A program made the position numbers and the translations under genes. A model generated the notes under the pieces. That model was not told where the DNA came from and did not search any database. It worked only from the letters and a program-made list of their open reading frames with translations. Shown here piece after piece: positions 719-22,626 of a stretch of 23,144 bases of DNA. Numbering within the stretch: position 1 is the stretch's first letter; each line of letters begins with the position of its first letter. The stretch covers positions 1 through 23,144 of the IMG/VR virus record IMGVR_UViG_3300030117_005266. The stretch is one strand, 5' to 3'. The stretch comes from a virus.

Positions 719-1203
719 TATAATTCTTTTTCAAAGTCGTTTACAAAGGTTGCTATTAATTCTGGTGGTAATGTTTCAAATCTTTTCTCAAAAGGTTTTG
801 TAAAAAACAAACTGGGTTTTATGCCTTGTTCAAATATTGATCTGGCTATTACATAATTAAGACCTTTTCTTTTTGCAAACCTACCACCCTCTCCTCTTGG
901 TGCTATACCTTTTCTTACAGTCCACTTATCAAAAGCTGAACTAGGTGGTCTTTTGTTTGTGTACTTAAAAGGTGTATCATATTTTTTCTTTGTACCACTA
1001 ACTCCTTGATCTTGATAACTACCATATTCTTCCATTATAAATTGTAATATAAAACCTGTATTGTCAGAAAGTAAATTGTAATCCAATGATTCATAAAGTT
1101 TTTTACTTACATTCTTTTTACCTCTAGTTAGATTTGCTCGTGATTGTTTTATCACATACTTTGCAAAATCATTCAATAATTTTTTTGTTTCTTGAAATTC
1201 CAT
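718..1203 (-). CDS. Tail-completion / HK97 gp10-like minor structural protein (tentative)
   Basis: 161 residues from the ATG at 1203, whose TGATG overlap with the previous stop argues against the TTG two codons upstream. The protein is basic: an N-terminal helix (MEFQETKKLLNDFAKYVIKQ) is followed by a central region rich in Lys, Arg, Gly and Tyr (QDQGVSGTKKKYDTPFKYTN; GIAPRGEGGRFAKRKGLNYV) and a C-terminal helix ending in FVNDFEKEL. The layout of helix, Gly-rich middle and IFEQGIKPSLFFTKPF-like segment resembles HK97 gp10-type head-tail or tail-completion proteins. Its place between a tail-terminator-like gene and another structural gene agrees. The family assignment comes from pattern and context, not from a diagnostic motif. 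Confidence 0.7.
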   Translation of the reverse strand: MEFQETKKLLNDFAKYVIKQSRANLTRGKKNVSKKLYESLDYNLLSDNTGFILQFIMEEYGSYQDQGVSGTKKKYDTPFKYTNKRPPSSAFDKWTVRKGIAPRGEGGRFAKRKGLNYVIARSIFEQGIKPSLFFTKPFEKRFETLPPELIATFVNDFEKEL

Positions 1204-1673
1204 CAGCAAATACTTATATCGTTTTCAATTAATATATCCATAGTACACGCCCAACCACCTAATCTGTTTTCAAACCTTTCATAAAATGGCTCACATACAG
1301 GATCTCCAGATAATTGATATTTTGATGTATATAGTGATCCTCTACGCAGTAAGTGTATGATTTTATTTATGACTGCTAGTTGTGTATTGAGTACATCTTG
1401 TTCATTATCGTTTCCTACAAAAACATCTGTTGTTTCATCTTTGTATTCATTGACAACATCCATAGCCATCAACGTAATATTAAATACCAGAGCTTGTTCT
1501 TGTGCTGTAACTGTATTTACAATAATATGTGAAAGAGGGAATATGGTTTGTTTGGACAAATCTATTTCTGTTATATCTCCAGTTGTTACTGTATTGACAT
1601 TTGGATCAAGCAACAAATTTGTTTTGATTGTATCTGTCAGTTGGTAAAAACCTCTTATTCCTTGGTTACTCAT
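1203..1673 (-). CDS. Tail terminator-like protein (tentative)
   Basis: 156 residues starting with ATG at 1673 inside an ATGA overlap with the stop of the frame-shifted chaperone ORF. The N-terminus (GFYQLTDTIKTNLLLDPNVN) is followed by beta-strand-like stretches, a FNITLMAMDVVNEYKDETTD segment, a long helix (DVLNTQLAVINKIIHLLRRG) and a C-terminal strand with MDILIENDISIC. An alpha/beta protein of this size that measures short strands around one helix is typical of tail terminator/completion proteins that cap long non-contractile or contractile tails. The neighbouring tail chaperone pair and gp10-like gene support this. There is no single diagnostic residue, so the role is inferred from family shape and synteny. 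Confidence 0.65.
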   Translation of the reverse strand: MSNQGIRGFYQLTDTIKTNLLLDPNVNTVTTGDITEIDLSKQTIFPLSHIIVNTVTAQEQALVFNITLMAMDVVNEYKDETTDVFVGNDNEQDVLNTQLAVINKIIHLLRRGSLYTSKYQLSGDPVCEPFYERFENRLGGWACTMDILIENDISIC

Positions 1674-1936
1674 TTATATTTTCTTTTTAATTCTCTTGCT
1701 TCTAATTCGTTTTTCTCTTTCATAAAGGTTAGCATCAACAAACATTCGTGTAAACCTAGTTTAGTGATATTTTCAACTCTTGTAATATCGTATTGACAGA
1801 GGAAGTAAATTTGTCCAATCCATCCATATTTTCCATTAAAGTTTCCAACTGCCGAGATGGCATCTGCTTCTTGTCCTGAAAATAAGACATCATAACTCTC
1901 GATAAGTCTATCCCTAAACGATAAAAAAAAAGCATA
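1670..1936 (-). CDS. Frame-shifted second part of the tail assembly chaperone (T-like ORF without start codon)
   Basis: This frame is open from just after a TAG at 1937-1939 to a TGA at 1670-1672, 88 codons. For about 60 codons it overlaps the end of the chaperone ORF, in the -1 frame. It has no ATG or GTG until near its end, so normal initiation is unlikely. The translation looks like a real protein: ADAISAVGNFNGKYGWIGQI, then a helical QYDITRVENITKLGLHECLL and a charged tail MKEKNELEARELKRKYK. Its stop overlaps the next start as ATGA. Many siphophages make such an extension by -1 frameshifting (lambda G/GT) so that the chaperone can bridge tail tube and tape measure. A run of nine T on the coding strand lies at its 5' end. 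A homopolymer sequencing error is the main alternative. Confidence 0.6.
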   Translation of the reverse strand, partial: YAFFLSFRDRLIESYDVLFSGQEADAISAVGNFNGKYGWIGQIYFLCQYDITRVENITKLGLHECLLMLTFMKEKNELEARELKRKYK

Positions 1937-2406
1937 CTACCGAACACCACATCAAGTGGCATATCTTTCATCAGCTCTTGTCCTTCTCCAGAATATTTTT
2001 GTATAGTGTATTTACCACTAAATGATGTATCTATTGGTCTGTATAGAACTGCCATAGCTTTGTGCATATCATCCCAACTTGAAATGTAAGTATCTAGATC
2101 AACATACTCTCCTAAACTCATATCATCAAGGTTCGGTATAAAACCATACTCTACACCATTCATCATAAATCTTTGTTTGAGTTTTGGTTTCTTATTAAAC
2201 ATATCGCCAAGTATGTTTGTTACTTTTGTAACATCCCTTAATTTCATTCTAAAAGAATCTTTATGTGGTATGCCACAAAATATCTCAATCATTTTAGTTG
2301 CTAGAAAGCTCTCATCTTTGTTTTCTTCTTGAATCTTGTAATACTTTTGATATTGTGAAAGTCTTATTTCTGAAAGTTCTGTAGGAACAATTAATTTAAT
2401 CTTCAT
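1756..2406 (-). CDS. Tail assembly chaperone-like protein (G-like ORF)
   Basis: 216 residues from ATG at 2406; a TTG at 2442 is in frame but overlaps the terminator T-tract and has no ribosome site, so I reject it. The N-terminus MKIKLIVPTELSEIRLSQYQ is the kind of opening seen in Bacteroidetes phage proteins that precede tail genes. The middle has NGVEYGFIPNLDDMSLGEYV, and the end DVVFGSMLFFYRLGIDLSRV followed by a helical tail ending in LQELKISLN. A second, stop-free frame overlaps the last ~60 codons. This two-frame arrangement, placed before tail-completion genes, is the signature of tail assembly chaperones. No terminator separates it from the genes below, so it probably heads the tail operon. 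Confidence 0.65.
   Translation of the reverse strand: MKIKLIVPTELSEIRLSQYQKYYKIQEENKDESFLATKMIEIFCGIPHKDSFRMKLRDVTKVTNILGDMFNKKPKLKQRFMMNGVEYGFIPNLDDMSLGEYVDLDTYISSWDDMHKAMAVLYRPIDTSFSGKYTIQKYSGEGQELMKDMPLDVVFGSMLFFYRLGIDLSRVMMSYFQDKKQMPSRQLETLMENMDGLDKFTSSVNTILQELKISLN
1923..1931 (-). other. Candidate -1 ribosomal frameshift slippery run (T9)
   Basis: The coding strand reads ATG CTT TTT TTT TAT in the chaperone frame, which contains the heptamer T TTT TTT, a perfect XXXYYYZ slippery sequence. A one-base backward slip moves ribosomes into the frame that is open to 1670. The run is at the 5' boundary of that second frame, only two codons after its upstream TAG, which is where a shift would have to happen or later. 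I did not identify a downstream stimulatory pseudoknot. Confidence 0.5.
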
Positions 2407-2437
2407 ATATATATATCGAAATTGAAGATTGATTTTT
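2404..2437 (-). promoter_or_regulatory. Candidate late promoter upstream of the tail operon
   Basis: On the minus strand the sequence reads AAAAAT (2437-2432), 13 bases, then CGATATATATATATG. The same arrangement, with the same 13-base gap, is found upstream of terS (4964-4997). A terminator ends at 2441, only 34 bases before the ATG at 2406, so either a promoter lies here or the tail genes depend on read-through. If the CG ATATATA block acts as the -10 element, the mRNA would be almost leaderless. No TANNTTTG box is present here. Confidence 0.35.
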
Positions 2438-2440
2438 GAC

Positions 2441-2470
2441 AAAAAAAAAGGAGGGCCATTAAACCCTCCT
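2441..2470 (-). terminator. Rho-independent terminator after the 38-residue gene
   Basis: In minus-strand orientation the stem AGGAGGG pairs with CCCTCCT around an 8-base loop (arms 2464-2470 and 2449-2455) and is followed at once by nine T (2449-2441). This is a textbook intrinsic terminator. It ends transcription coming from terS, terL, the PP-loop gene and the small gene at 2497-2613, and separates them from the tail operon that begins at 2406. Confidence 0.85.
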
Positions 2471-2496
2471 CAAACAACTAACTAAAAATTAAAAAT

Positions 2497-2681: not shown

Positions 2682-3527
2682 TTACAAACCACAGTATCCA
2701 CTATCGCAATCATTGAAATCATCATCGAATAATTCTGCTTGTATATTCCACTCTTTAATTTGTTTGAACGATAAGTTCTTGCTTTTATACCAAACATCTT
2801 TATTGTGTTTGATTTTTTCTTTACTTGCAAACCATTGAATTTTGTTTGGATGCTTTGACCACATTTTTTTTATTAGTAGTGGGTTTTTATGAAAACAACC
2901 TACACAATTATTCATCCAAGCAAATCTTACTGGCTTGTTAATCCAATACTTAATAATTTGATCTTTGTAAATATTATCATTAATCAAAGGGAATACAGGT
3001 TTTTGCCATTCAATCATACCCCACTTGTTTTGTGTTTTTCTTTTACCTATAATAGCTTTCATTTCTAATATACCATTATGATTTGTTTTTGCTAATGTCC
3101 TTTTTGCTCTTGCCTGTTCGTTAGCTCTAAAACCTAATCTAAACTCAGCAGGTTCTCGTATTATTTTTCTCCACCATTCAAATATAGGTTCAAGCTTCAT
3201 TTGTGTAGTGCAATATCTTCTAAGAGGGTCAGGTAATGTTCCTGCTGTATCTAAAACTTTATCAAACGTTTTGCCTGTTACCCAATCAATTTTTTTTCCT
3301 ATATATTGCTCTAAGTCAAGTATTGTATATATGATGGTATCATCTTCTGCTGTTGCTATGAATGGTGCTTGTATTTTATCCTCTACTTGTTTTCTAATTT
3401 TTTTATCTTTAAATTTAGATTTGTTATCCTCTATCCTCACTAAAGCAAATACATAAAAGTCTGCAAGATAATTAGCACTTATATATGCCGAAGTCTTACC
3501 ACCACTTATTAAATTAACTGTTTTCAT
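2682..3527 (-). CDS. PP-loop ATPase, PAPS-reductase-like
   Basis: 281 residues. The PP-loop SGGKTSA is at residues 8-14, the signature of ATP-pyrophosphatase enzymes that adenylate a substrate (PAPS reductase, DndC and tRNA-thiolation relatives). Cysteines occur in RRYCTTQMK, in NNCVGCFHKN and in a terminal CDSGYCGL, compatible with metal or Fe-S binding. Phages of many groups carry such PAPS-reductase-like genes; proven roles are few, and both sulfur metabolism and DNA or tRNA modification are possible. The start overlaps the terL stop as ATGA, so the two are translationally coupled, and a Mom-like protein and a methyltransferase are encoded just before terS. I favour a nucleic-acid modification role as an inference only. 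Confidence 0.75.
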   Translation of the reverse strand: MKTVNLISGGKTSAYISANYLADFYVFALVRIEDNKSKFKDKKIRKQVEDKIQAPFIATAEDDTIIYTILDLEQYIGKKIDWVTGKTFDKVLDTAGTLPDPLRRYCTTQMKLEPIFEWWRKIIREPAEFRLGFRANEQARAKRTLAKTNHNGILEMKAIIGKRKTQNKWGMIEWQKPVFPLINDNIYKDQIIKYWINKPVRFAWMNNCVGCFHKNPLLIKKMWSKHPNKIQWFASKEKIKHNKDVWYKSKNLSFKQIKEWNIQAELFDDDFNDCDSGYCGL

Positions 3528-4963: not shown

Positions 4964-4997
4964 TATATCTATATATCGTAAAATTTAATCAATTTTT
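4964..4997 (-). promoter_or_regulatory. Candidate late promoter upstream of terS
   Basis: The minus strand reads AAAAAT (4997-4992), 13 bases, then CGATATATAGATATA (4978-4964), 31 bases before the terS ATG. It matches the element before the tail operon (2404-2437) in both blocks and in spacing: 14 of the 15 bases in the second block agree. It starts in the stop of the Mom-like gene. The phage-encoded sigma-like factor (8771-9250) is the obvious candidate to recognise it. Confidence 0.35.
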
Positions 4998-5670
4998 AAA
5001 ATAATTCTATTTGTGTATGTGTTTTGTAGCTAGTATCGTAATTTATATTTTGACCTTTGGGATATTTGTAAGTTTTGTATGACATTTTTTCTTTCATTTT
5101 TTTTATTTGTTTTTTTGAACCCAAGAACTTAACATATCTAAATTTACCTTCTTGTTCATCAACAATATAGTTTTGTTCTAGTAATTTTTTTGTATTTGAT
5201 GTACCTAACCTTGAATTAATAGTTCTTTCGTGTATTTCTTTCCCTTGCATATCAATTATTTTTTTTCTCTTTGATGTCAAGCCAGTGTAAATCCAATTAG
5301 TAGCTTGATAAATATAGCCGTGATGTCCATTATTAATATCAGCGTAACTTATCAATACAAGTGGTTTTGGTAATAATTTGAATGTTTGTGCAACAAAAAA
5401 ACTTAAAACATTTTTTTCTAAATTATCATTCACGATTAATCTATTTAATTCTAAAGTTTCAATCTCATATTTACCTGCAAATATTGAATATCCCATATTT
5501 AACATTCTACAAGGTGATCCGTACGTGCATATACCAAATAAATTTTCTTTTGTATATAAACCGAAACTAAATTTTATTAATGGAACTCTTTTTGCATAAT
5601 GTTTATGTAACAACCATTCTTTACATAATTCTTTTTTAATTGATTTTACAAAATATTTTTTCTTAATCAT
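4996..5670 (-). CDS. Mom-like DNA modification protein (GNAT fold)
   Basis: 224 residues. The core matches what I know of Mom-family proteins, named after phage Mu Mom, which modifies adenine to a methylcarbamoyl form and protects phage DNA from restriction: ETLELNRLIVNDNLEKNVLS (about residues 71-90), FKLLPKPLVLISYAD (97-111) and HHGYIYQATNWIYTG (116-130). The C-terminal ~90 residues are lysine-rich and may bind DNA. Mom proteins have a GNAT acetyltransferase fold. The start overlaps the stop of the DnaA-like gene (ATGA). Together with the upstream methyltransferase it forms an antirestriction module next to packaging genes. The exact modification cannot be read from sequence. Confidence 0.75.
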   Translation of the reverse strand: MIKKKYFVKSIKKELCKEWLLHKHYAKRVPLIKFSFGLYTKENLFGICTYGSPCRMLNMGYSIFAGKYEIETLELNRLIVNDNLEKNVLSFFVAQTFKLLPKPLVLISYADINNGHHGYIYQATNWIYTGLTSKRKKIIDMQGKEIHERTINSRLGTSNTKKLLEQNYIVDEQEGKFRYVKFLGSKKQIKKMKEKMSYKTYKYPKGQNINYDTSYKTHTQIELF

Positions 5671-6065
5671 TTATTTTGTGTCATTTTATCTACTTGCTTT
5701 GCTATCTTATCAACATCTTTATTTTTTAAAAAGTTTACTTTGTGTTTTATAAACTCTCTTTTTGCATCATTGTTTAGGTCTTTGAGTTTGAGTGTAATGT
5801 CTAACAACCAGTCTTGTATTCTACTATTGTATTTTTTATGCGTTTCAAAGCTCTTGATGGAATGTAATACTGTTGTATGATTGCCTGATCTACCTTTTTG
5901 TTTGAATAGATTGCCTATTTCTTGTAGTGTCATCTTTTCGTATTTGTATAATATGAATGATAGTAATGATCTTGCTTCTACTACTTCTCTTTTTCTTGTA
6001 TTCTGGAATACATCTACGTTTGCTTTCTTACTTATTTCTTTTGCTATCTTATCTGCTTTACTCAT
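5667..6065 (-). CDS. DnaA domain IV-like DNA-binding protein
   Basis: 132 residues. Residues ~22-75 correspond to the C-terminal DNA-binding domain of DnaA: REVVEARSLLSFILYKY, then the helix-turn-helix MTLQEIGNLFKQKGRSG and the signature NHTTVLHSI (62-70; DHTTVLHA in DnaA). The AAA+ ATPase domain is absent, so it binds DnaA-box-like DNA without being an initiator ATPase. The C-terminus is a lysine-rich helix. Possible roles are recognition of the phage origin, hijacking or blocking of host initiation, or transcription control. It is coupled by ATGA overlaps to the methyltransferase before it and the Mom-like gene after it. Confidence 0.85.
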   Translation of the reverse strand: MSKADKIAKEISKKANVDVFQNTRKREVVEARSLLSFILYKYEKMTLQEIGNLFKQKGRSGNHTTVLHSIKSFETHKKYNSRIQDWLLDITLKLKDLNNDAKREFIKHKVNFLKNKDVDKIAKQVDKMTQNK

Positions 6066-6661
6066 AATATTCTTAATTGTCTTTTATGATTGTCTATTCG
6101 TTTCTTTGCTGCTTCGAAGTATTCTTTTTCTATTTCGTAACCTGTTAAATCAAACCCTAAATTATGACAAGCTATTGCAATACTACCACTTCCTAAATGA
6201 GTATCTAATATTTTATCACCATCTTTACAGTAATTTATTAATATCCATTCATATATTGATACAGGCATTTCACAAGGATGTATGCCTTGCCTACCTTTAG
6301 CAACAAAGTTTGTCCAAGTTTGTTCATACAATTCTATTTTTTTATGATATGAACAAGATGCGATTACACATTTTGAAAAATTGGGCATAGGTTGATTTTT
6401 TATCCAAACAATAGCACCTCCATTTTTTTCAAAGCAATTATAATAATTAGCACCAAATATTATTCTATTTTTACTAACCCTTTTTAGTTCTTTAAAATAT
6501 ACATCTGTAGGTGTTTCATCATTCCAATCAACTTTAGCACCTCTATTTGTTTGCACAAAATTACCAATACCAAAAGGTGGATCAACGATAGCCAAGTCAA
6601 ATTGATTTTCTGACATTTCTTTCATTGCTTCTATACAGTCTTCATTATAAATGTTTATCAA
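6062..6661 (-). CDS. DNA N4-cytosine/N6-adenine methyltransferase
   Basis: 199 residues. Catalytic motif IV DPPFG is near residues 27-31 after INIYNEDCIEAMKEM, and the AdoMet-binding motif I region GDKILDTHLGSGSIAIACHN is near the C-terminus, with HPCEMP before it. The order motif IV then motif I is that of beta-class amino-methyltransferases. The start must be the TTG at 6661 because the conserved N-terminal NEDC motif lies before the first ATG; this TTG overlaps the stop of the exonuclease gene (TTGA), so translation is probably coupled. No restriction endonuclease partner is adjacent, so it is likely an orphan enzyme protecting phage DNA. Target sequence is unknown. Confidence 0.9.
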   Translation of the reverse strand: MINIYNEDCIEAMKEMSENQFDLAIVDPPFGIGNFVQTNRGAKVDWNDETPTDVYFKELKRVSKNRIIFGANYYNCFEKNGGAIVWIKNQPMPNFSKCVIASCSYHKKIELYEQTWTNFVAKGRQGIHPCEMPVSIYEWILINYCKDGDKILDTHLGSGSIAIACHNLGFDLTGYEIEKEYFEAAKKRIDNHKRQLRIL

Positions 6662-8641: not shown

Positions 8642-8774
8642 TTAACCAATTTTTTCTATTATCACATCCACAATCTTCATATCCTAATTTTATTGCGATC
8701 CATTGTGCTATGTCTTTGCCTTTACCAAATGTAATGATGTTTATTATATATTCTAATTTATCTCCTAATCTCAT
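8568..8774 (-). CDS. Small CGC-motif protein (68 aa) with overlapping basic tail
   Basis: 68 residues, ATG at 8774 inside the stop of the sigma-like gene (ATGA). The N-terminal part RLGDKLEYIINIITFGKGKD and the motif YEDCGCDNRKNWLN belong to a type of small phage protein with the CGC-x2-RK signature and usually end shortly after it. Here the frame continues for ~23 more residues (TRTRTKTKQRR...), all of which overlap the next gene in another frame. The tail may be a by-product of a lost stop codon (the sequence GGTTAAATGG has TAA one frame away). Function unknown; possibly metal-binding. Confidence 0.65.
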   Translation of the reverse strand: MRLGDKLEYIINIITFGKGKDIAQWIAIKLGYEDCGCDNRKNWLNGITRTRTKTKQRRISKVDKIQRN

Positions 8775-9250
8775 ATTAGTTCTTTTAGTTTTTTCTTTAC
8801 GTTTCTAAAAGTATTGTATAATGAGTAATAACTTATTTGACTTTTTCTTGATAGCTCACTTATGCTTTCTCCACCACTTACAATATCGTATACCTTTGCA
8901 TCGTACCAGTATATTTCTTTTAGAGCTTGTTGTATCTTTCCATACACCTCATCATAGTTTACTGTGCCCTCATCCTCTATTTGTATATTCTCAAGTGTCG
9001 TATATGTTACTTTCATTTTCTTTCGTAACAGGTCAACATACAAACCTCTTAATATTCTAAAACAGTAATAGTAATTAATATCGCAATCTCCATAACTAAA
9101 GTCTATTCCCTTTTGTGTATTTTTTATAAGCAAAAGGTATAGTTCTTGCACTATATCCTCAACCTCTGTTTCTCTCAAACCACCAAAACTTCTTGTAATC
9201 TCCATCCACTTTTCGTGTCTTTCGTATGCTATTTCTACTTGTGTTTTCAA
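8771..9250 (-). CDS. Phage sigma-70-like factor
   Basis: 159 residues. The N-terminal half looks like sigma region 2 (ETEVEDIVQELYLLLIKN, then INYYYCFRILRGLYVDLLRK), and the C-terminal half like region 4 with a helix-turn-helix (VYDIVSGGESISELSRKSQI, YYSLYNTFRNVKKKLKELI). This is the two-domain plan of small ECF-type sigma factors. The start is most likely the TTG at 9250, which overlaps the helicase stop (TTGA); the first ATG is at codon 16. It lies in the early operon, so it could redirect host RNA polymerase to late promoters such as those proposed at 4964-4997 and 2404-2437. A general HTH regulator is the alternative. Confidence 0.7.
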   Translation of the reverse strand: MKTQVEIAYERHEKWMEITRSFGGLRETEVEDIVQELYLLLIKNTQKGIDFSYGDCDINYYYCFRILRGLYVDLLRKKMKVTYTTLENIQIEDEGTVNYDEVYGKIQQALKEIYWYDAKVYDIVSGGESISELSRKSQISYYSLYNTFRNVKKKLKELI

Positions 9251-10158
9251 AATGGCATTTTTAATTGTTCTATGATGTTTGGTCTGTGTATGTCTTTGTC
9301 TCCTAGTTTATATCCTACATTGTTCTTAATGCTTTCCAGAATAAGTGGACTATCGAAAGGTGTTGGTTTACATCCTAAATCGTGGTCTTTTATTTTCTTA
9401 CAATGAAGCTCTGTGTATATCCATCTGGATTCGTGTTGGGTCATTCTGTGAATAGTATAGAAATCATCAGTTCTATTACCAAAAACATTACCACCCTCTA
9501 CATCAGACATAGCCAATGGTATAGGATGTCCTGCGTATTCGTGATTGCTATTGTATTTTTTTCTAAAACTTTCAGTAACGGAATGCATTACTAACCACAA
9601 ACCTTTGTTGTATTTTTTGACAAATATTCTAAAGTCTGTCATACACTCATACAAATATTCAAAAGCATTACTAAACTTCATCATTCCTTTATTCTTTCTC
9701 AAACTGTTTATTGGATCAATAATTAAACAGTCAAAGTCATACTGTGGCATAACCACCTCACACAAAGATAGTAAATCTAAATAATCATAATTTTGTTCGC
9801 AGTCTATAAATTTAAAATGCTGATAGACAAACTCTGTATGTTTGTCAAGTTCTTCTTTTGATAGTTTGTTTATTGGTTTTTGAGATTTGAACTCTATTAA
9901 TCTTCTTATCAAAGAATGAGGTTCATTTTCAGAGCTGAATACCAAAAACTTTATCTTATGTTTCATAGCAAAGAGTAACATAAAATATATAATAACAGAT
10001 GTCTTACCTACGTTTGCGTGTCCTGCAAAACAAGTAAGATTTCTTTTGAACCTGATTACACTATCTATTTCTTCAATGCCTATCTTTGGTGCTTCATTTA
10101 GTTTGCCTGTTCGTATTAGTTCAAGTTTGTCTAAATGATCTTCAAAGTTTATAAGCAT
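9247..10158 (-). CDS. DnaB-like/RecA-fold replicative helicase
   Basis: 303 residues. Walker A is GHANVGKT (46-53), followed by a catalytic-Glu-like FSSENEP (74-80), Walker B FDCLIIDPINS with Asp148, and a later MHSVTES that corresponds to the H4/sensor region. This is the C-terminal ATPase core of DnaB-family helicases; the N-terminal primase-interaction domain is missing or reduced to the ~40-residue start. It probably unwinds phage DNA at the fork, perhaps with host primase. The ATG at 10158 overlaps the stop of the DUF3310 gene, and the stop overlaps the sigma-like start. Confidence 0.8.
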   Translation of the reverse strand: MLINFEDHLDKLELIRTGKLNEAPKIGIEEIDSVIRFKRNLTCFAGHANVGKTSVIIYFMLLFAMKHKIKFLVFSSENEPHSLIRRLIEFKSQKPINKLSKEELDKHTEFVYQHFKFIDCEQNYDYLDLLSLCEVVMPQYDFDCLIIDPINSLRKNKGMMKFSNAFEYLYECMTDFRIFVKKYNKGLWLVMHSVTESFRKKYNSNHEYAGHPIPLAMSDVEGGNVFGNRTDDFYTIHRMTQHESRWIYTELHCKKIKDHDLGCKPTPFDSPLILESIKNNVGYKLGDKDIHRPNIIEQLKMPF

Positions 10159-16217: not shown

Positions 16218-18593
16218 TTATTTTTGTATTTCTAATATTGGTTTTCCTTTATCATCAGTCCAATCTACTTCCATTATATGTTTATCTTTTCTGTCTCCTA
16301 TAACAAGCCAAGAAACATATCCATCAAAATCTTCGTTTTGACATTCTATATGTAAGTCATTACCTTCTATCTTACCCCTAACTGCATCCCAAGTATCTTC
16401 GTTTGTTGTAAAAACTTGTTTGTCATCTACAAGAGCTGAAAATGTCCCCTCTGACATTCCAAAATTTCTGTCAATGTTTATTGATGCTTTACCTTTTGTA
16501 AGTTTTGTTTTACCTCTATATATTAAATCTGTAAGTGGAGATTCCACAAATGAATGATACAAATAATGTGTATCTGGTTTTATAGGGTGGTCAATTCTAA
16601 AAGAACCTGATCCTTTACTCAAAGAGCCACTCACTTCAAGATTCATATTACCACTTCCTGCATTTAACAACTTAAATGTTTTGTTGCTTGATGTACTCGT
16701 TTCAAGTTTTATTGTATCAGAATCAGGGAATATAAAATCATAATTACAAACACCATCATCTGTCAATCTTAATACTGGATCTGATGTCGATGATTGAGTA
16801 ATATCTAATTTACCATCAGCACTAGATGATCCTATGGCTACATTTTTAGTAAATACATTTGCCTCTGTACTACCATCTAGTCTGAAATATTCTGTTACTC
16901 CACCACTACCATCATCGGACTGAAAAATTATATCTTTATCATCAGTTCTATTTATTATATATAAATCACCTGTGTCATTTTGTATTTTACTATCAGTGTT
17001 ATTGTGAAATATTTGTAAATCAGCAGCATTACCAAAACTTGCTACTACACTATCAACAAAATTAAATTGTTTGCTAATTGAAACATTTACATTACTACCA
17101 TCTAGTTTGAAATATTCAGCGAGTCCCCCGCTTCCGTCATCTGATTTGAATATAATATCGTTATCGTCAGAGTTATTTGTAATTTCTAAATTACCAGTGT
17201 AGTTTTGTACATATGAATGTGTGCCATCGTGTTTGATTTGTAAATCCCCAGAATTACCTGCTCTTATTCCCACATTGTCTAAAGCATATAAATCTTTATG
17301 AAGTTGTACTATAGCGCTACCTCCATCTAACTGCAAATAGGTTGTAAATCCACCGCTGCCGTCGTCAGTCCTAAGTATTATGTCCTTGTCGTCGGATTGG
17401 TTTGTTATATATAGGTCTCCAGTGTAGTTTGTCAGGGAGGTATCCGTGCCGTTGTGATTCATATCGAAGTCGCCCGAGGTACCCAACTGCAACGGTACGC
17501 TATCTATGAACCTTGCGTACTTATTGAAAGTTACTCTGCTTTCGCTGCCGTCTAAAAATAAATATGTTGCTGTGCCGCCACTGCCGTCATCAGATTTGAA
17601 TATTACGTCCTTGTCATTAACCGAATTTTCTATAATTAGGTCACCCGACACTGTGTTCTGTATATAGGAATCCGTGCCGTCGTGATAGAGAATCAAGTCT
17701 CCGCCTGTACCGAACCTGGCCGCAACGCCATCATTGAAATACATCCCCATGGCGGCTGATACGATTATGGATCTATCGCCACCATCTAACCTAATATATT
17801 CAGTCGCAGTACCAGAACCATTATCAGCATAAAAAATAATATCGCCATCTGCTTGGTGTTGGACAAAATTTACACCTCCATTATAATTGTTGAATTCTGT
17901 ATTTGTTCCGTTATGCGTGATTTTCAGGTCAGCAGAAGAACCGATTTGCAATTCAACACTATCATTAATTCTTAAAGATTTGTTAATTGTAGTTCTGCCC
18001 TCGCTGCCATCTATTTGTATGTAGTTTTCCGTACTACCGGAACCGTCATCTGACTGGAATATGATGTCCTTGTCATCAGCGTTATTTTTTATATATATAT
18101 GGCCCGTGTTGTTTGCTAAATAAGAATCTGTACCGCTGTGGTATAGTTCTATATCGCCGCTGTTTCCGGCCTTGAATGCAACACCGTCGGTAGTTCTTAT
18201 TTCTCTACTCGCGACAGTTCTTGCGTCTCCACCGTCTAATCTGAGGTATTCTGTCGTGCCGCCCGATCCGTTATCCGACTCGAATATTATGTCGCCATCG
18301 TCGGTCCTGTTGGTTATCTGTATGTTTCCCGTATCATTAAAGAGAGATAAGCCGGAACCTGTGTGCTTTAGAAAAGCATCTCCACCGCTACCAAGTAAAA
18401 CCGCCTTATTGTCCGCAAGGGATATCTCGCCTACTACCGTTACGTCTCCCTGAAGCGTTACGTTGGCGCCGCTCGGCGTAGCCGCGTTGTATATCTCCGT
18501 GAAATTGTCGTTGCATATGTCGAATGCCGCCCTCAGCGAGCTTCCTGTCCCGTCGTTCGCTGTGGTTCCTATTGCTATAGTCTGCTTAGCCAT
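16218..18593 (-). CDS. Tail fibre with seven ~75-residue repeats (791 aa)
   Basis: N-terminal anchor MAKQTIAIGTTANDGTGSSL (continuing RAAFDICNDNFTEIY) is nearly the same as in the 1346-residue fibre, so both may attach to the same virion site. Residues ~56-580 are seven repeats with the pattern GNSGDLxIxHNGTDS, TGDLYIxN, DKDIIFxSDDGSGG, EYxxLDGS. The C-terminal ~200 residues form a different domain with HYLYHSFVESPLTDLIYRGK and VSWLVIGDRKDKH, a type seen at the end of phage fibres and some bacterial surface proteins, probably the receptor-facing tip. Base composition alternates between repeats: AT-rich near 16850-17075 and 17800-17960, much richer in G+C elsewhere. The start overlaps the preceding stop by 8 bases. 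Confidence 0.85.
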   Translation of the reverse strand: MAKQTIAIGTTANDGTGSSLRAAFDICNDNFTEIYNAATPSGANVTLQGDVTVVGEISLADNKAVLLGSGGDAFLKHTGSGLSLFNDTGNIQITNRTDDGDIIFESDNGSGGTTEYLRLDGGDARTVASREIRTTDGVAFKAGNSGDIELYHSGTDSYLANNTGHIYIKNNADDKDIIFQSDDGSGSTENYIQIDGSEGRTTINKSLRINDSVELQIGSSADLKITHNGTNTEFNNYNGGVNFVQHQADGDIIFYADNGSGTATEYIRLDGGDRSIIVSAAMGMYFNDGVAARFGTGGDLILYHDGTDSYIQNTVSGDLIIENSVNDKDVIFKSDDGSGGTATYLFLDGSESRVTFNKYARFIDSVPLQLGTSGDFDMNHNGTDTSLTNYTGDLYITNQSDDKDIILRTDDGSGGFTTYLQLDGGSAIVQLHKDLYALDNVGIRAGNSGDLQIKHDGTHSYVQNYTGNLEITNNSDDNDIIFKSDDGSGGLAEYFKLDGSNVNVSISKQFNFVDSVVASFGNAADLQIFHNNTDSKIQNDTGDLYIINRTDDKDIIFQSDDGSGGVTEYFRLDGSTEANVFTKNVAIGSSSADGKLDITQSSTSDPVLRLTDDGVCNYDFIFPDSDTIKLETSTSSNKTFKLLNAGSGNMNLEVSGSLSKGSGSFRIDHPIKPDTHYLYHSFVESPLTDLIYRGKTKLTKGKASINIDRNFGMSEGTFSALVDDKQVFTTNEDTWDAVRGKIEGNDLHIECQNEDFDGYVSWLVIGDRKDKHIMEVDWTDDKGKPILEIQK
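16850..18425 (-). repeat. Seven coding repeats of ~225 bp in the 791-residue fibre
   Basis: Seven copies of a ~75-residue unit are recognisable by their DDGSGG/DNGSGG and LDGS blocks. Protein similarity is high while codon choice differs greatly between copies; some units are AT-rich and others G+C-rich. Boundaries are approximate. Confidence 0.8.
18499..18524 (-). repeat. Direct repeat shared by the two fibre anchors
   Basis: The 26 bases at 18499-18524 match 22532-22557 with one difference (gtgaa[a/g]ttgtcgttg then catatgtcgaa). They code for the FDICNDNF part of the anchor in both fibres. Because codons elsewhere in the anchors have diverged, this short block is the best site for homologous exchange or deletion between the two genes. 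Confidence 0.7.
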
Positions 18594-21500
18594 TTAGTTT
18601 GTCTTTTAATTGTTTTACCTCCGCGCTCAGCTCCTGTATCGCCTTCGCCATGATCGGTATCAGCCTGCCGTAAGTCGCCTCAAGCTTATCGGGATTGCTA
18701 TCGTAAACCAGTCTTGTGTACTCATCATCGATTTTCTGTAGGTCTTGTGCTATGAATCCCACGTCTTTGACGCCCGATCTGTTGCCATCTCTTTGATCCC
18801 ACTCGAATGTTACTGGCTTTAGGTTATTCACAAAGTCCAAACCGTATACCGAATCCTTAATTTCTTTTTTATCGCGCTTGTCTGACAATGAGCTTATCGA
18901 TGTCACCTGTGCCCTGATTGCCGATACGTTGCTGTCGCCTAACGTTATCTCATTTGATACGTCAACAGCTGACGCGGCCGCGGCGGATCCTATTATGGTA
19001 TTGTTGGACCCTGTCGTTAAGGCATCCCCGGCTCTATTGCCTATTATAGTATTTTTGATACCAGTGGAAACGTCGTGACCGGCCTCGTAACCGACCGCTA
19101 CATTATATGTGTCTGCATCGGCATTTTGTGCGGTTAACGCTTCAAAACCCACGGCGACACTACCGCCTCTTGTGTCTTCCGCTCCTAATGCTCCGCTACC
19201 GATAGCCACATTATATCCGGACGTGGTAAGCGCGTCTCCGGCCAAATTACCTATTATTACGTTGTGTATACCCGTCGTCTGGTTTGCTGCCGCGTTGTAA
19301 CCCACGGCTACGTTAAACCCGTCACCGCCTACGTCCAACGACAGCAATGCCTGGTAGCCTATCGCGGTATTCCTACCTCCTGTATCTTCCGAGCCTAAAG
19401 CCTGAAGACCCACGGCGGTATTGAACAGCCCCGTGGTCAGCGCGTCCCCGGCGAGACCTCCTATTATGGTATTGTTGTATCCGCTGCTTATGTTCTGTCC
19501 AGCGGCATACCCTATCGCCACGTTATATGCGGCACCGTCTATGTTTTGACTAAGCAATGCGTTATTTCCGATGGCCACGTTTCTCGTTCCGGTATCCTCG
19601 GCGCTAAGCGCCTGGTAACCTATGGCCACGTTCTGTCCACCTGTCGTAAGTGCGTCTCCTGCGAGACCGCCTATAAGCGTGGAGTTGCTTCCCGTGGTAA
19701 CCGCCTGCCCCGCAAGGTGCCCTACGGCCACGTTATATACGCTTCCGTCCGTATTCTGCGTTTCTAGCGCCTTGTATCCGACAGCCACTGACCTGTTTCC
19801 CTCGTCCTCTGACGCCAATGCCGCGTAGCCGATAGCCGTGTTCTGCTCTCCTGTGGTGAGCGAATCTCCCGCGCTTGCGCCTATAAGCGTATTGAGCGTA
19901 CCTGTCGTTACGGCCGCGCCCGCGTCGTATCCTACGGCGGTGTTGTAAGTGTTGGCGTCGCCGGCTGGGTTCATGTTTCCCAGGGCGGCATTACCTACCG
20001 CTACGTTTCTCGAGCCGTTTACGTTTACCGCCATTGCGCTGTCGCCTATCGCCGTGTTGTATGACGTGTCCGTAGATGAGCTCAACGAGTTGTAGCCTAC
20101 GGCGGTGTTCTGCTGGCCGGATGTTATCGCGTCTCCCGCAAACCCGCCTAATATCGTGTTTCTTACTCCCGTACTTACGGAATAACCCGCCTGGTAACCT
20201 ACCGCAGTGTTGTATGCCGTGGTGCCCGCGTTTTGCGCGTTAAGCGCGTAGGCCCCGATAGCGACGTTCTTTCCGTGCGCGTCCTCTGAGCTCAATGCGG
20301 CGTACCCCAATACGGCATTCTCTATCCCCGAAGTCAACGCGTCTCCGGCCAAACTACCTACCAGCGCGTTTTTCGTACCGGTCGTAACCGAAACACCGGC
20401 CTGGTATCCCAAAACGGAATTGTATCCGTCCGTACCTGCGTCTTGCGTGCTGAGGGCATTGTATCCTACCGCGGTATTCGTTCCGTGCGCGTCTTCTGCG
20501 CCTAATGCCTGATATCCCACCGCAACGTTATAGTTACCCGTGGTCAAAGCGCCCGCAACGAGTCCGCCTATTAGTGTGTTCCTTACACCGGTGGTTATGT
20601 TTTGCCCTGCGGTGTATCCTATTGCGACATTGTAGTTTGACGCGTCGCTGTTCATGTTCTGCAGAGCCGAGTTACCTATCGCGACGTTTCTGGATTCCGA
20701 TCCGTCCGCGGAGCTCATGGCATTGTAGCCTATGGCCACGTTCTCGTCGCCTGAAGTCAATTCATCACCAGCTTGCGCACCAATCATCGTGTTTTGAGCC
20801 CCCGTTGAAATAGCCGTACCAGAATCGTATCCGACCGCCACGTTGTATCCGTTGCCGTCGAAGTTAAGTGACTTTAGCGATCCCTCTCCGACCGCCACGT
20901 TCCTGCTTCCAGTGTCTTCTGAGGAAAGGGCCTCGTAACCTATGGCGACATTGTTTGACCCCGTGGTGATTGCATCTCCTGAGGCACCGCCAACGAATGT
21001 ATTCAATGCGCCCGTGCTAACGTTTGCGCCTGATTGATATCCTATGGCTACGTTATAAGCATCCGTGCCCGCATTCTGCAATATTAGAGACTGATAGCCT
21101 ATAGCCACATTTCTTCCGTTTGCGTCCTCGCTGCCTAAAGCCGATAGGCCTATAGCGATATTGCCCGATCCCCCTACAAGATCGGAGCCCGCTCCTTTAC
21201 CCACCAGTACGTTGTCGCTCCCGGTGGTTAAGGCGTCACCCGCAAGCCCTCCTACTATTGTATTCTGAACTCCCGTTGAAATAGCCGTACCCGCCTCATA
21301 TCCTACGGCTACATTGTATGCGTCGCCATCGTAGTTCAGGCTTTCTAAAGCGCCTTTACCTATAGCTACGTTTCTGCTTCCGGTGTCTTCCGTGCTTAAT
21401 GCGTTATGCCCTATGGCTATATTGAAGTTTCCTGTCGTTAGCGCATCTCCGGCCTGTCCACCTATTATGCTATTGTAAGCACCTGTTGAAATATTTGAAC

Positions 21501-22626
21501 CGGCGCTAAATCCAATTGCCACGTTATAAGCGTCCGTACCGGCGTCTTGACTAGCTAAAGCGTCGTAACCAATAGCGACGTTTCTACCATGCCCATCTTC
21601 TGAGCTCAATGCCTGGTAACCTATGGCAACATTATAATTACCTATATTTAGCGCATCGCCCGCTAATCCTCCTATAATAACGTTTCTAATACCTGTAGAA
21701 ACCGATAATCCGGCTTGGTAGCCGACCGCCACGTTATACGCGTTTGCGCCTGCATTAAGACTTGATAATGCACTCGCGCCCACAGCCACGTTTAGGCCAT
21801 GTGCGTCCTCTGAGCCCAATGCGTCATAACCGATAGCGACATTGCCTATACCTGTAGTAAGAGCGTCTCCGGCAAGACCGCCTAACAGCGTGTTCTGCAC
21901 TCCCGTCGTTACCTCCATACCGGCGCTATGGCCGATGGCCGTATTGTAGTTGTTGCTATCGTTGTTTTGTTTGCTCAAGGCATAATAGCCAATCGCTATA
22001 CTGCTATTACCGGTGTCTTCCGAGCCTAGCGCGTGATAGCCTATGGCTACGCTGTAACTACCGGTGGTTAATGCGTCTCCTGCGAGACCGCCCAATATTG
22101 TATTTTGTACGCCTGTTGAAATCGATATACCCGATGTATACCCTATAGCCACGTTGTATGCGTGTGCGCCTGCATTTAGGTTTTCCAAAGCGGAGTGTCC
22201 TATGGCTACGTTTCTTCCATGCCCGTCTTCGTTACCTAACGCGTTTCTTCCTATGGCTATATTTTCCTTACCTGACGTTAGCGCGTCTCCGGCAAAGGAA
22301 CCTAGTATTACATTGTTGTTGCCCGTATCTATAGAGTATCCCGCGTTATATCCTACGGCCACGTTGGAGTCCGCTGTGGTAAGCGATCTCAAAGCACCTA
22401 TACCCAGTGCGGTATTGTAGAATGCGTTGTCTAGCGTACCCGTCGTGCTGTGCCCTATCAGAAGGGATCCCGTAAACGCGGTTCCCTCCGACTTGAAGCC
22501 GAGCGCTGCGGTGGTACCGCCGTAAAGTTCAGTGAAGTTGTCGTTGCATATGTCGAAGGCGGCTCTAAGTGACGAGCCGGTTCCGTCATTGGGATTGGTC
22601 CCTATGTTTATAGATTGTTTAGCCAT
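18586..22626 (-). CDS. Giant tail fibre with beta-roll repeats and peptidase S74 chaperone (1346 aa)
   Basis: Anchor domain MAKQSINIGTNPNDGTGSSL (continuing RAAFDICNDNF) at the N-terminus, then ~1170 residues of short repeats of the types NVAIGYxAL, STGxxNTIIGG and LAGDALTTG, then a C-terminal domain from about residue 1248. The repeats resemble the YadA-head/Hep_Hag left-handed beta-roll and form a long trimeric shaft. The C-terminal SDKRDKKEI, LDFVNNLKPVTFEW, DVGFIAQDL and LIPIMAKAIQEL are the peptidase S74 intramolecular chaperone, which drives trimerisation and cuts itself off before the Ser of SDKRDKKEI. The gene is about 45-60% G+C with balanced codons, unlike the AT-rich genome part. 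Confidence 0.9.
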   Translation of the reverse strand: MAKQSINIGTNPNDGTGSSLRAAFDICNDNFTELYGGTTAALGFKSEGTAFTGSLLIGHSTTGTLDNAFYNTALGIGALRSLTTADSNVAVGYNAGYSIDTGNNNVILGSFAGDALTSGKENIAIGRNALGNEDGHGRNVAIGHSALENLNAGAHAYNVAIGYTSGISISTGVQNTILGGLAGDALTTGSYSVAIGYHALGSEDTGNSSIAIGYYALSKQNNDSNNYNTAIGHSAGMEVTTGVQNTLLGGLAGDALTTGIGNVAIGYDALGSEDAHGLNVAVGASALSSLNAGANAYNVAVGYQAGLSVSTGIRNVIIGGLAGDALNIGNYNVAIGYQALSSEDGHGRNVAIGYDALASQDAGTDAYNVAIGFSAGSNISTGAYNSIIGGQAGDALTTGNFNIAIGHNALSTEDTGSRNVAIGKGALESLNYDGDAYNVAVGYEAGTAISTGVQNTIVGGLAGDALTTGSDNVLVGKGAGSDLVGGSGNIAIGLSALGSEDANGRNVAIGYQSLILQNAGTDAYNVAIGYQSGANVSTGALNTFVGGASGDAITTGSNNVAIGYEALSSEDTGSRNVAVGEGSLKSLNFDGNGYNVAVGYDSGTAISTGAQNTMIGAQAGDELTSGDENVAIGYNAMSSADGSESRNVAIGNSALQNMNSDASNYNVAIGYTAGQNITTGVRNTLIGGLVAGALTTGNYNVAVGYQALGAEDAHGTNTAVGYNALSTQDAGTDGYNSVLGYQAGVSVTTGTKNALVGSLAGDALTSGIENAVLGYAALSSEDAHGKNVAIGAYALNAQNAGTTAYNTAVGYQAGYSVSTGVRNTILGGFAGDAITSGQQNTAVGYNSLSSSTDTSYNTAIGDSAMAVNVNGSRNVAVGNAALGNMNPAGDANTYNTAVGYDAGAAVTTGTLNTLIGASAGDSLTTGEQNTAIGYAALASEDEGNRSVAVGYKALETQNTDGSVYNVAVGHLAGQAVTTGSNSTLIGGLAGDALTTGGQNVAIGYQALSAEDTGTRNVAIGNNALLSQNIDGAAYNVAIGYAAGQNISSGYNNTIIGGLAGDALTTGLFNTAVGLQALGSEDTGGRNTAIGYQALLSLDVGGDGFNVAVGYNAAANQTTGIHNVIIGNLAGDALTTSGYNVAIGSGALGAEDTRGGSVAVGFEALTAQNADADTYNVAVGYEAGHDVSTGIKNTIIGNRAGDALTTGSNNTIIGSAAAASAVDVSNEITLGDSNVSAIRAQVTSISSLSDKRDKKEIKDSVYGLDFVNNLKPVTFEWDQRDGNRSGVKDVGFIAQDLQKIDDEYTRLVYDSNPDKLEATYGRLIPIMAKAIQELSAEVKQLKDKLNG
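18924..22440 (-). repeat. Sixteen ~74-residue coding super-repeats in the giant fibre
   Basis: I count 16 AGDAL-type units. Each super-repeat of about 74 residues has four sub-units: YNVAIGYxAGxxISTG, xxNTIIGGLAGDALTTG, xxNVAIGYxALGSED, and RNVAIGxxALxxxN. At DNA level the ~220-bp period is blurred because synonymous codons vary from copy to copy. Boundaries are approximate. Confidence 0.85.

Follow-up and report, generated by a model that had tools for sequence, protein, structure and literature searches.

Over about 56 codons of a probable phage tail chaperone gene, the same DNA encodes two C-termini, one in the 0 frame and one in the -1 frame, and both frames are under equal purifying selection. 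The gene lies in the virus record IMGVR_UViG_3300030117_005266, analysed as a single stretch of 23,144 bases (referred to below as the window), and its relatives form a large set of phages of Bacteroidota, which are abundant and aquatic. We place the probability that the gene as a whole is a dual-coded and recoded G/G-T gene at about 0.8.

As proposed here, one gene would specify two proteins with a common N-terminal domain of 161 residues and mutually exclusive C-termini. Normal decoding would yield G, a protein of 216 residues ending in a 55-residue extension, and recoding into the -1 frame at a run of nine T's (T9) would yield G-T, a protein of about 245 residues ending in an 84-residue T domain. 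If the analogy with phage lambda holds, the tape measure protein would be coated by G, and the less abundant G-T would bring in the subunit of the tail tube. (To judge by the sequence of the gene, both proteins would exist and would serve the tail.)

Layout of the locus

All features of the locus are on the minus strand. The 0-frame ORF (1756..2406, with its stop at 1756-1758) encodes the G-like chaperone (phrog_32199, E 5e-18) and begins with an ATG that is conserved among relatives as M1. Around codon 161 it reads ATG CTT TTT TTT TAT; here lies the T9 run (1923..1931; A9 on the plus strand), which its sequence and conservation mark as the proposed recoding site, with the heptamer T TTT TTT in phase at 1924..1930. 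Frame analysis delimits a stop-to-stop ORF of 88 codons in the -1 frame (1670..1936) that carries the T-like domain; its T part proper (1673-1924) has the motif KYGWIGQ, the counterpart in most relatives being WGW. Read in the 0 frame, the stretch identified as dual-coded by the reshuffling, diversity and substitution tests described below (1756..1923) gives G its C-terminal extension; read in the -1 frame, it gives T-domain sequence. The third (+1) frame is closed by a TAG two codons past the T run (1914..1916). At its far end the -1 ORF stops in an ATGA junction (1670..1673) with the start of the next gene (1203..1673; 156 residues, phrog_30964, function unassigned), and between the upstream gene and G a terminator-like hairpin followed by T9 (2437..2475) can be made out by eye. 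Rfam and tRNA scans across the window gave no matches.

A first-pass annotation of this DNA had described the two ORFs and their coordinates, the T9 run with its T TTT TTT, and the ATGA junction, and all of these are exact in the window sequence. It had also noted that the -1 frame has neither ATG nor GTG until near its end, and in the window no ATG, GTG or TTG in that frame would yield at least 50 residues.

Relatives and the conservation of both frames

A protein search yielded 80 loci, and a profile together with further single searches brought the number of analysable loci to 315 in all, which represent 229 distinct sequences over the chaperone region. The T run has at least nine T's in every one of them (nine in 191 loci, ten in 115 and twelve in 9). 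The -1 frame is open for at least 78 codons in all loci except L219, and the 0 frame extends 55-88 codons past the slip site in 310 of the 315. A fusion across T9 had been predicted in the first-pass annotation; the run and both frames that the prediction calls for are kept across the 315 loci. (The exception, L219:650-735, has one early stop in the T frame followed by intact-looking sequence, and is either a mutation or an assembly error. At the other extreme, L228, L248 and L217 have 0-frame ends of 80-88 codons, and nearly all of the T domain, 91-93 codons, is dual-coded.)

In all five loci whose 0-frame end is short, the T domain is intact. In L119/L256 (one contig, found twice) the 0-frame stop comes 7 codons past the slip; the 0 frame is open again beyond this nonsense codon, so that the loss looks recent, and the sister locus L257 retains the long end. 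The other three are records of the P12024L type, in which the 0-frame end is 26 codons. Loss of either frame in close relatives had been named as something that would speak against dual coding; what is found within the close family is loss of the long 0-frame end in the L119/L256 lineage only.

The arrangement extends to six distant prophages in host genomes (among them G220 (L337), G209 (L338), G715 (L340), G478 (L342) and G508 (L346)), each with its nine T's and with the 0 frame encoding G, the -1 frame a T-like domain. Their 0-frame ends are roughly 30-70 codons long, and some of their G proteins are only ~20% identical to others. Viral scans with the proteins of L340 and L342 gave no matches, the scan with the L338 protein gave one, an identical contig, and tblastn with T alone against phage records gave none.

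Polymerase or ribosome at the T run

The switch into the -1 frame is probably the work of RNA polymerase, which would add a U at U9, and the resulting U10 mRNA would put ribosomes in the -1 frame. (A U8 mRNA would terminate translation after about two codons, giving a short G; if polymerase slips both ways, there would be three products: long G, G-T and short G.) Alternatively, the same dual-coded G/G-T gene could depend on ribosomes that slip back by one base, in the ordinary way, on the in-phase U UUU UUU. This is a real possibility, but one from which we lean away. For G-T genes, ribosomal slippage is the mechanism that has been established (PMC5009743), the strict form T TTT TTT is in phase in all 232 distinct sequences, and the T's that flank it are partly dictated by the aliphatic and aromatic residues encoded there.

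Against the ribosome stands the way in which the length of the run is kept. On a tree of 256 sequences the arrangement of the run has changed about 20 times, never falling below nine T's, and its codon phase varies accordingly (2+3+3+1 in the window, 3+3+3 in L113, 1+3+3+3 in L129, 2+3+3+2 in L111, and 1+3+3+2 in L338, L342 and L346). The T's outside the heptamer, counted as (5',3'), come as (1,1), (1,2), (2,1), (2,0), (1,4) or (0,3); where there are none on one side there are two or three on the other, so that loss on one side is offset and the total is always at least two. 

Codon usage at the slip site points the same way. The first slip Phe codon is TTC in 0 of 251 sequences, and the second is TTC only where an upstream TTT extends the run, whereas other conserved Phe columns in G are 18-35% TTC (25-44 changes). 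When TAT or TAC follows, a change of the second slip Phe from TTT to TTC would be silent in both frames and would produce T TTT TTC; without an extended run, that heptamer is never seen, while P2 uses T TTT TTG. (That a relaxed heptamer, T TTT TT[T/C/G], might be sufficient was considered and rejected on this codon usage, which does not go so far as to reject the strict heptamer outright.)

A stimulatory structure was not found either: 25 sequences yielded 0 consensus pairs 3' of the run with programs that are blind to pseudoknots, and z-scores for single-sequence folding downstream of the run range from -1.8 to +1.2. In 225 of 229 relatives the third (+1) frame runs into a stop after 0-2 codons, which may follow simply from what the other two frames encode. 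Elsewhere in the coding parts of these contigs there are 12 A/T runs of at least nine in 208 kb, and these phages thus do not strictly avoid such runs.

A run of nine A's or T's whose length is conserved in all homologs has been considered very likely to signify purposeful slippage (Baranov 2005, PMC1088944). Two considerations count against polymerase: phage P2 shifts frame on T TTT TTG, where there is no long run, and published rates of transcriptional slippage, 15-55% (PMC4256274), exceed the low level of G-T frameshifting in lambda. On balance, the floor of nine T's regardless of codon phase, with gains and losses that offset each other and no structure found downstream, tilts the reading of the sequences towards programmed transcriptional slippage as the switch step. 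Polymerase and ribosomal slippage may also act together. The frame change implied in the first-pass annotation is supported, with the refinement that a classical ribosomal shift is less favoured by the T-run evidence than slippage by RNA polymerase. For the wider proposition, that polymerase slippage at T9 sets the G/G-T ratio and that both C-termini are overprinted throughout the group, we consider the chances evenly poised.

Selection in two frames

Dual coding was analysed by three methods, whose results agree. In 47 lineages that share less than 85% DNA identity, synonymous codons were reshuffled in one frame at a time: given the -1 protein, the 0 frame is left open to its stop in 0.61% of reshuffles on average, and given the 0-frame protein, the -1 frame is left open in 0.54%. 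Third-position diversity in the 0 frame drops to 0.368 past the slip site, from 0.549 ahead of it, and in the -1 frame it rises from 0.331 within the overlap to 0.482 beyond. Finally, substitutions in 45 independent pairs were counted in the manner of OLGenie (the idea is that of PMC7531306, rewritten here); these rates are uncorrected for multiple hits and for transition bias. Per site in the overlap they are 0.039 for changes nonsynonymous in both frames (NN), 0.096 for NS, 0.094 for SN and 0.490 for changes synonymous in both (SS), so that SS changes occur at ~5x the rate of changes synonymous in one frame only and at ~13x that of NN changes.

The resulting ratios in the overlap are nearly the same for the two frames: dNN/dSN is 0.41 [0.33-0.49] for the 0 frame and dNN/dNS is 0.40 [0.31-0.50] for the -1 frame. 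In the control region before the slip site the corresponding values are 0.10-0.11 and 1.02-1.42, that is, constraint in one frame only, and in the control region past the 0-frame stop they are 0.65 [0.39-1.31] (0 frame) and 0.12. The suggestion of the first-pass annotation that one stretch of DNA is under selection in two frames, with reduced synonymous change, is borne out by these figures.

Could the long end of G nevertheless be a passive frame, kept open by the composition of a T domain that alone is functional? The extension is modelled at low confidence, and the stops at 7 codons (L119/L256) and 26 codons (P12024L), with T intact, imply that it is dispensable somewhere. Passive retention fits poorly with a 0 frame that is open in 310 of 315 loci and with its rarity among reshuffles; the 0-frame ratio in the overlap also lies below that past the stop, although their intervals overlap. 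We regard a passive 0 frame as highly improbable.

Still less probable is a T protein made separately, by internal initiation or coupling, instead of as a fusion. Its one foothold is in P12024L, where the annotated ORF41 starts at a TAATG overlap. (In this phage, L081 (JQ823123.1), the T domain at 9435-9695 is annotated only from the ATG at 9528, and reading from T9 covers more of it.) An ATG or GTG precedes WGW within the T part in only 4 of 232 distinct sequences; moreover, the T run is conserved exactly where the frames must join, as production of a G-T fusion would have it.

Identity and genomic setting of the proteins

The lambda-type G/G-T role is the best reading of gene architecture, a weak profile match and gene context. 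The profile match is to phrog_166, 'tail protein', and is found for 22 of 53 relatives (at best 1e-5); a phrog_166 search in 149 genomes gave no matches. G and T were modelled apart with AlphaFold. The core of G (residues 1-165) is predicted at a pLDDT of about 90, its extension is predicted as helical at low confidence (pLDDT 37-57), and T is predicted as three helices at pLDDT 75. PDB sequence searches with G and T profiles found nothing convincing, and a Foldseek search of the PDB with G found nothing below E 0.78. (Structural matches from VIA-align were set aside as generic helical ones, with Z at or below 5.5.)

Proteins of 226-267 residues in BFVD match the models of both G and T, several of the T matches being weak. 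A BFVD entry named 'Tail assembly chaperone protein', from ctCpR1, gave a weak match (E 0.05). In these distant phages G and T thus seem to form one continuous ORF, and single chains that match both models support the idea that G and T belong together. The first-pass annotation had taken relatives with one continuous frame, or raw reads with eight or ten T's, as signs of a sequencing error; relatives of the former kind apparently exist at a distance, and T runs are indeed error-prone, but there is no sign of error here. To sequencing or assembly error, or a decayed gene whose single frame was split by a homopolymer miscount, we give next to no credence, since a run of at least nine and the same frame relation recur in 315 contigs from many samples, in the isolate phage P12024L and in host genomes, and both frames are under selection across the overlap.

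Related contigs carry terminase, portal, capsid protease and a tape-measure-like ORF, all on the same strand, with the chaperone gene beside terminase. On a related 32-kb contig the tape-measure-like ORF (phrog_3336, 1e-7) lies ~5 kb and several genes downstream of the chaperone and is not adjacent to it. A PAPS-reductase-like gene (2682-3527, minus strand; phrog_424, E 8e-18) is found between terminase and chaperone in the window, and not at that place in P12024L. Elsewhere the window encodes a Mom family protein of the DNA-modification kind (4996-5670, minus strand; Pfam PF25680, E 2e-38), an N6/N4 methylase (6062-6661), and a small sigma-70-like protein (8771-9250, minus strand; TIGR02937, E 1e-5, which is below the cut-off); in P12024L one protein carries a sigma-70 region 2 annotation. 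A 1346-residue fibre-like protein (18586-22626, minus strand) has many repeats of the GNxNVAIGYxAL type and a C-terminal chaperone of endosialidase domain (Peptidase_S74), and a neighbouring protein of 791 residues (16218-18593) has an almost identical N-terminus and a repeat of another kind.

Comparison with known systems

G/G-T frameshifting is a textbook case of recoding, usually with a short overlap, a slipping ribosome and a shift near the 3' end of G. The gene described here resembles lambda gpG/gpG-T, P2 E/E' and HK97 gp13/gp14 in that a common N-terminal domain would be joined, in a rarer -1 fusion, to a second domain, and in being a small early tail gene with an in-phase slippery heptamer. 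It differs in having no significant sequence or PDB match to these chaperones, in its invariable T run of at least nine, in adjoining terminase instead of directly preceding the tape measure gene, and in that the shift comes 55-88 codons before the end of G in the great majority of loci. The overlap past the slip is 6 codons in lambda (at most 21 open), 7 in P2 (at most 12 open) and at most 17 in HK97, and all of the 55-88 codons here are under two-frame selection; the first-pass view of the overlap as unusually long is thus well founded. (A long overlap in P2 was checked and proved to be wrong.)

In lambda, the domain common to G and G-T is for the tape measure, and the tube subunit is the binding partner of T (PMC5009743). 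When fusion is forced in TP901-1, the resulting particles do not infect (PMC4493119), implying that the ratio of G to G-T matters.

The slippage sites of Shigella mxiE and Thermus dnaX, like the one proposed here, have nine A's or T's, conserved length and two products (PMC1088944), and in mxiE the extra nucleotide joins two overlapping ORFs (PMC1088944). Those are bacterial genes, and this is a phage tail gene with dual-coded C-termini, in which slippage is predicted. Citrobacter rodentium tssM1 encodes part of a phage-tail-like machine, the type VI secretion system (T6SS), and slippage on A11 generates two length variants, both of which are needed (PMC4256274); unlike the present gene it has no long dual-coded overlap, is confined to few species, and slips on a run of A. 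The isolated relatives are the Nonlabens phages P12024L/S, in which ORF40 and ORF41 figure as two hypothetical proteins. In P12024L the T9 is the same and the 0 and -1 frames again encode G and T respectively, but the 0-frame end is shorter.

Evolution and significance

T, with its GW motif, is present in every relative. The length of the 0-frame end past the slip ranges among relatives between 7 and 88 codons, and there is little or nothing of this end in lambda, P2 and HK97. The simplest reading of the sequences may be that G lost its stop and grew longer, and that the new end was overprinted on an older T domain. Recoding in tail chaperones and T9 slippage sites in bacterial genes were already known (PMC1088944, PMC5009743, PMC4256274); in the open-access literature searched we found no report of a G/T overlap that is dual-coded throughout, or of a slipping polymerase in a G/G-T gene.

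Where annotation treats the two ORFs of the locus separately, the T domain is overlooked; P12024L is a case in point. With a G end of 55-88 residues and a T domain on the same DNA, these phages offer a natural and clean system for the study of overlapping genes. The conserved unit at the switch looks like a homopolymer of nine bases and, if polymerase slippage proves true, the same developmental ratio would have been solved by a different machine.
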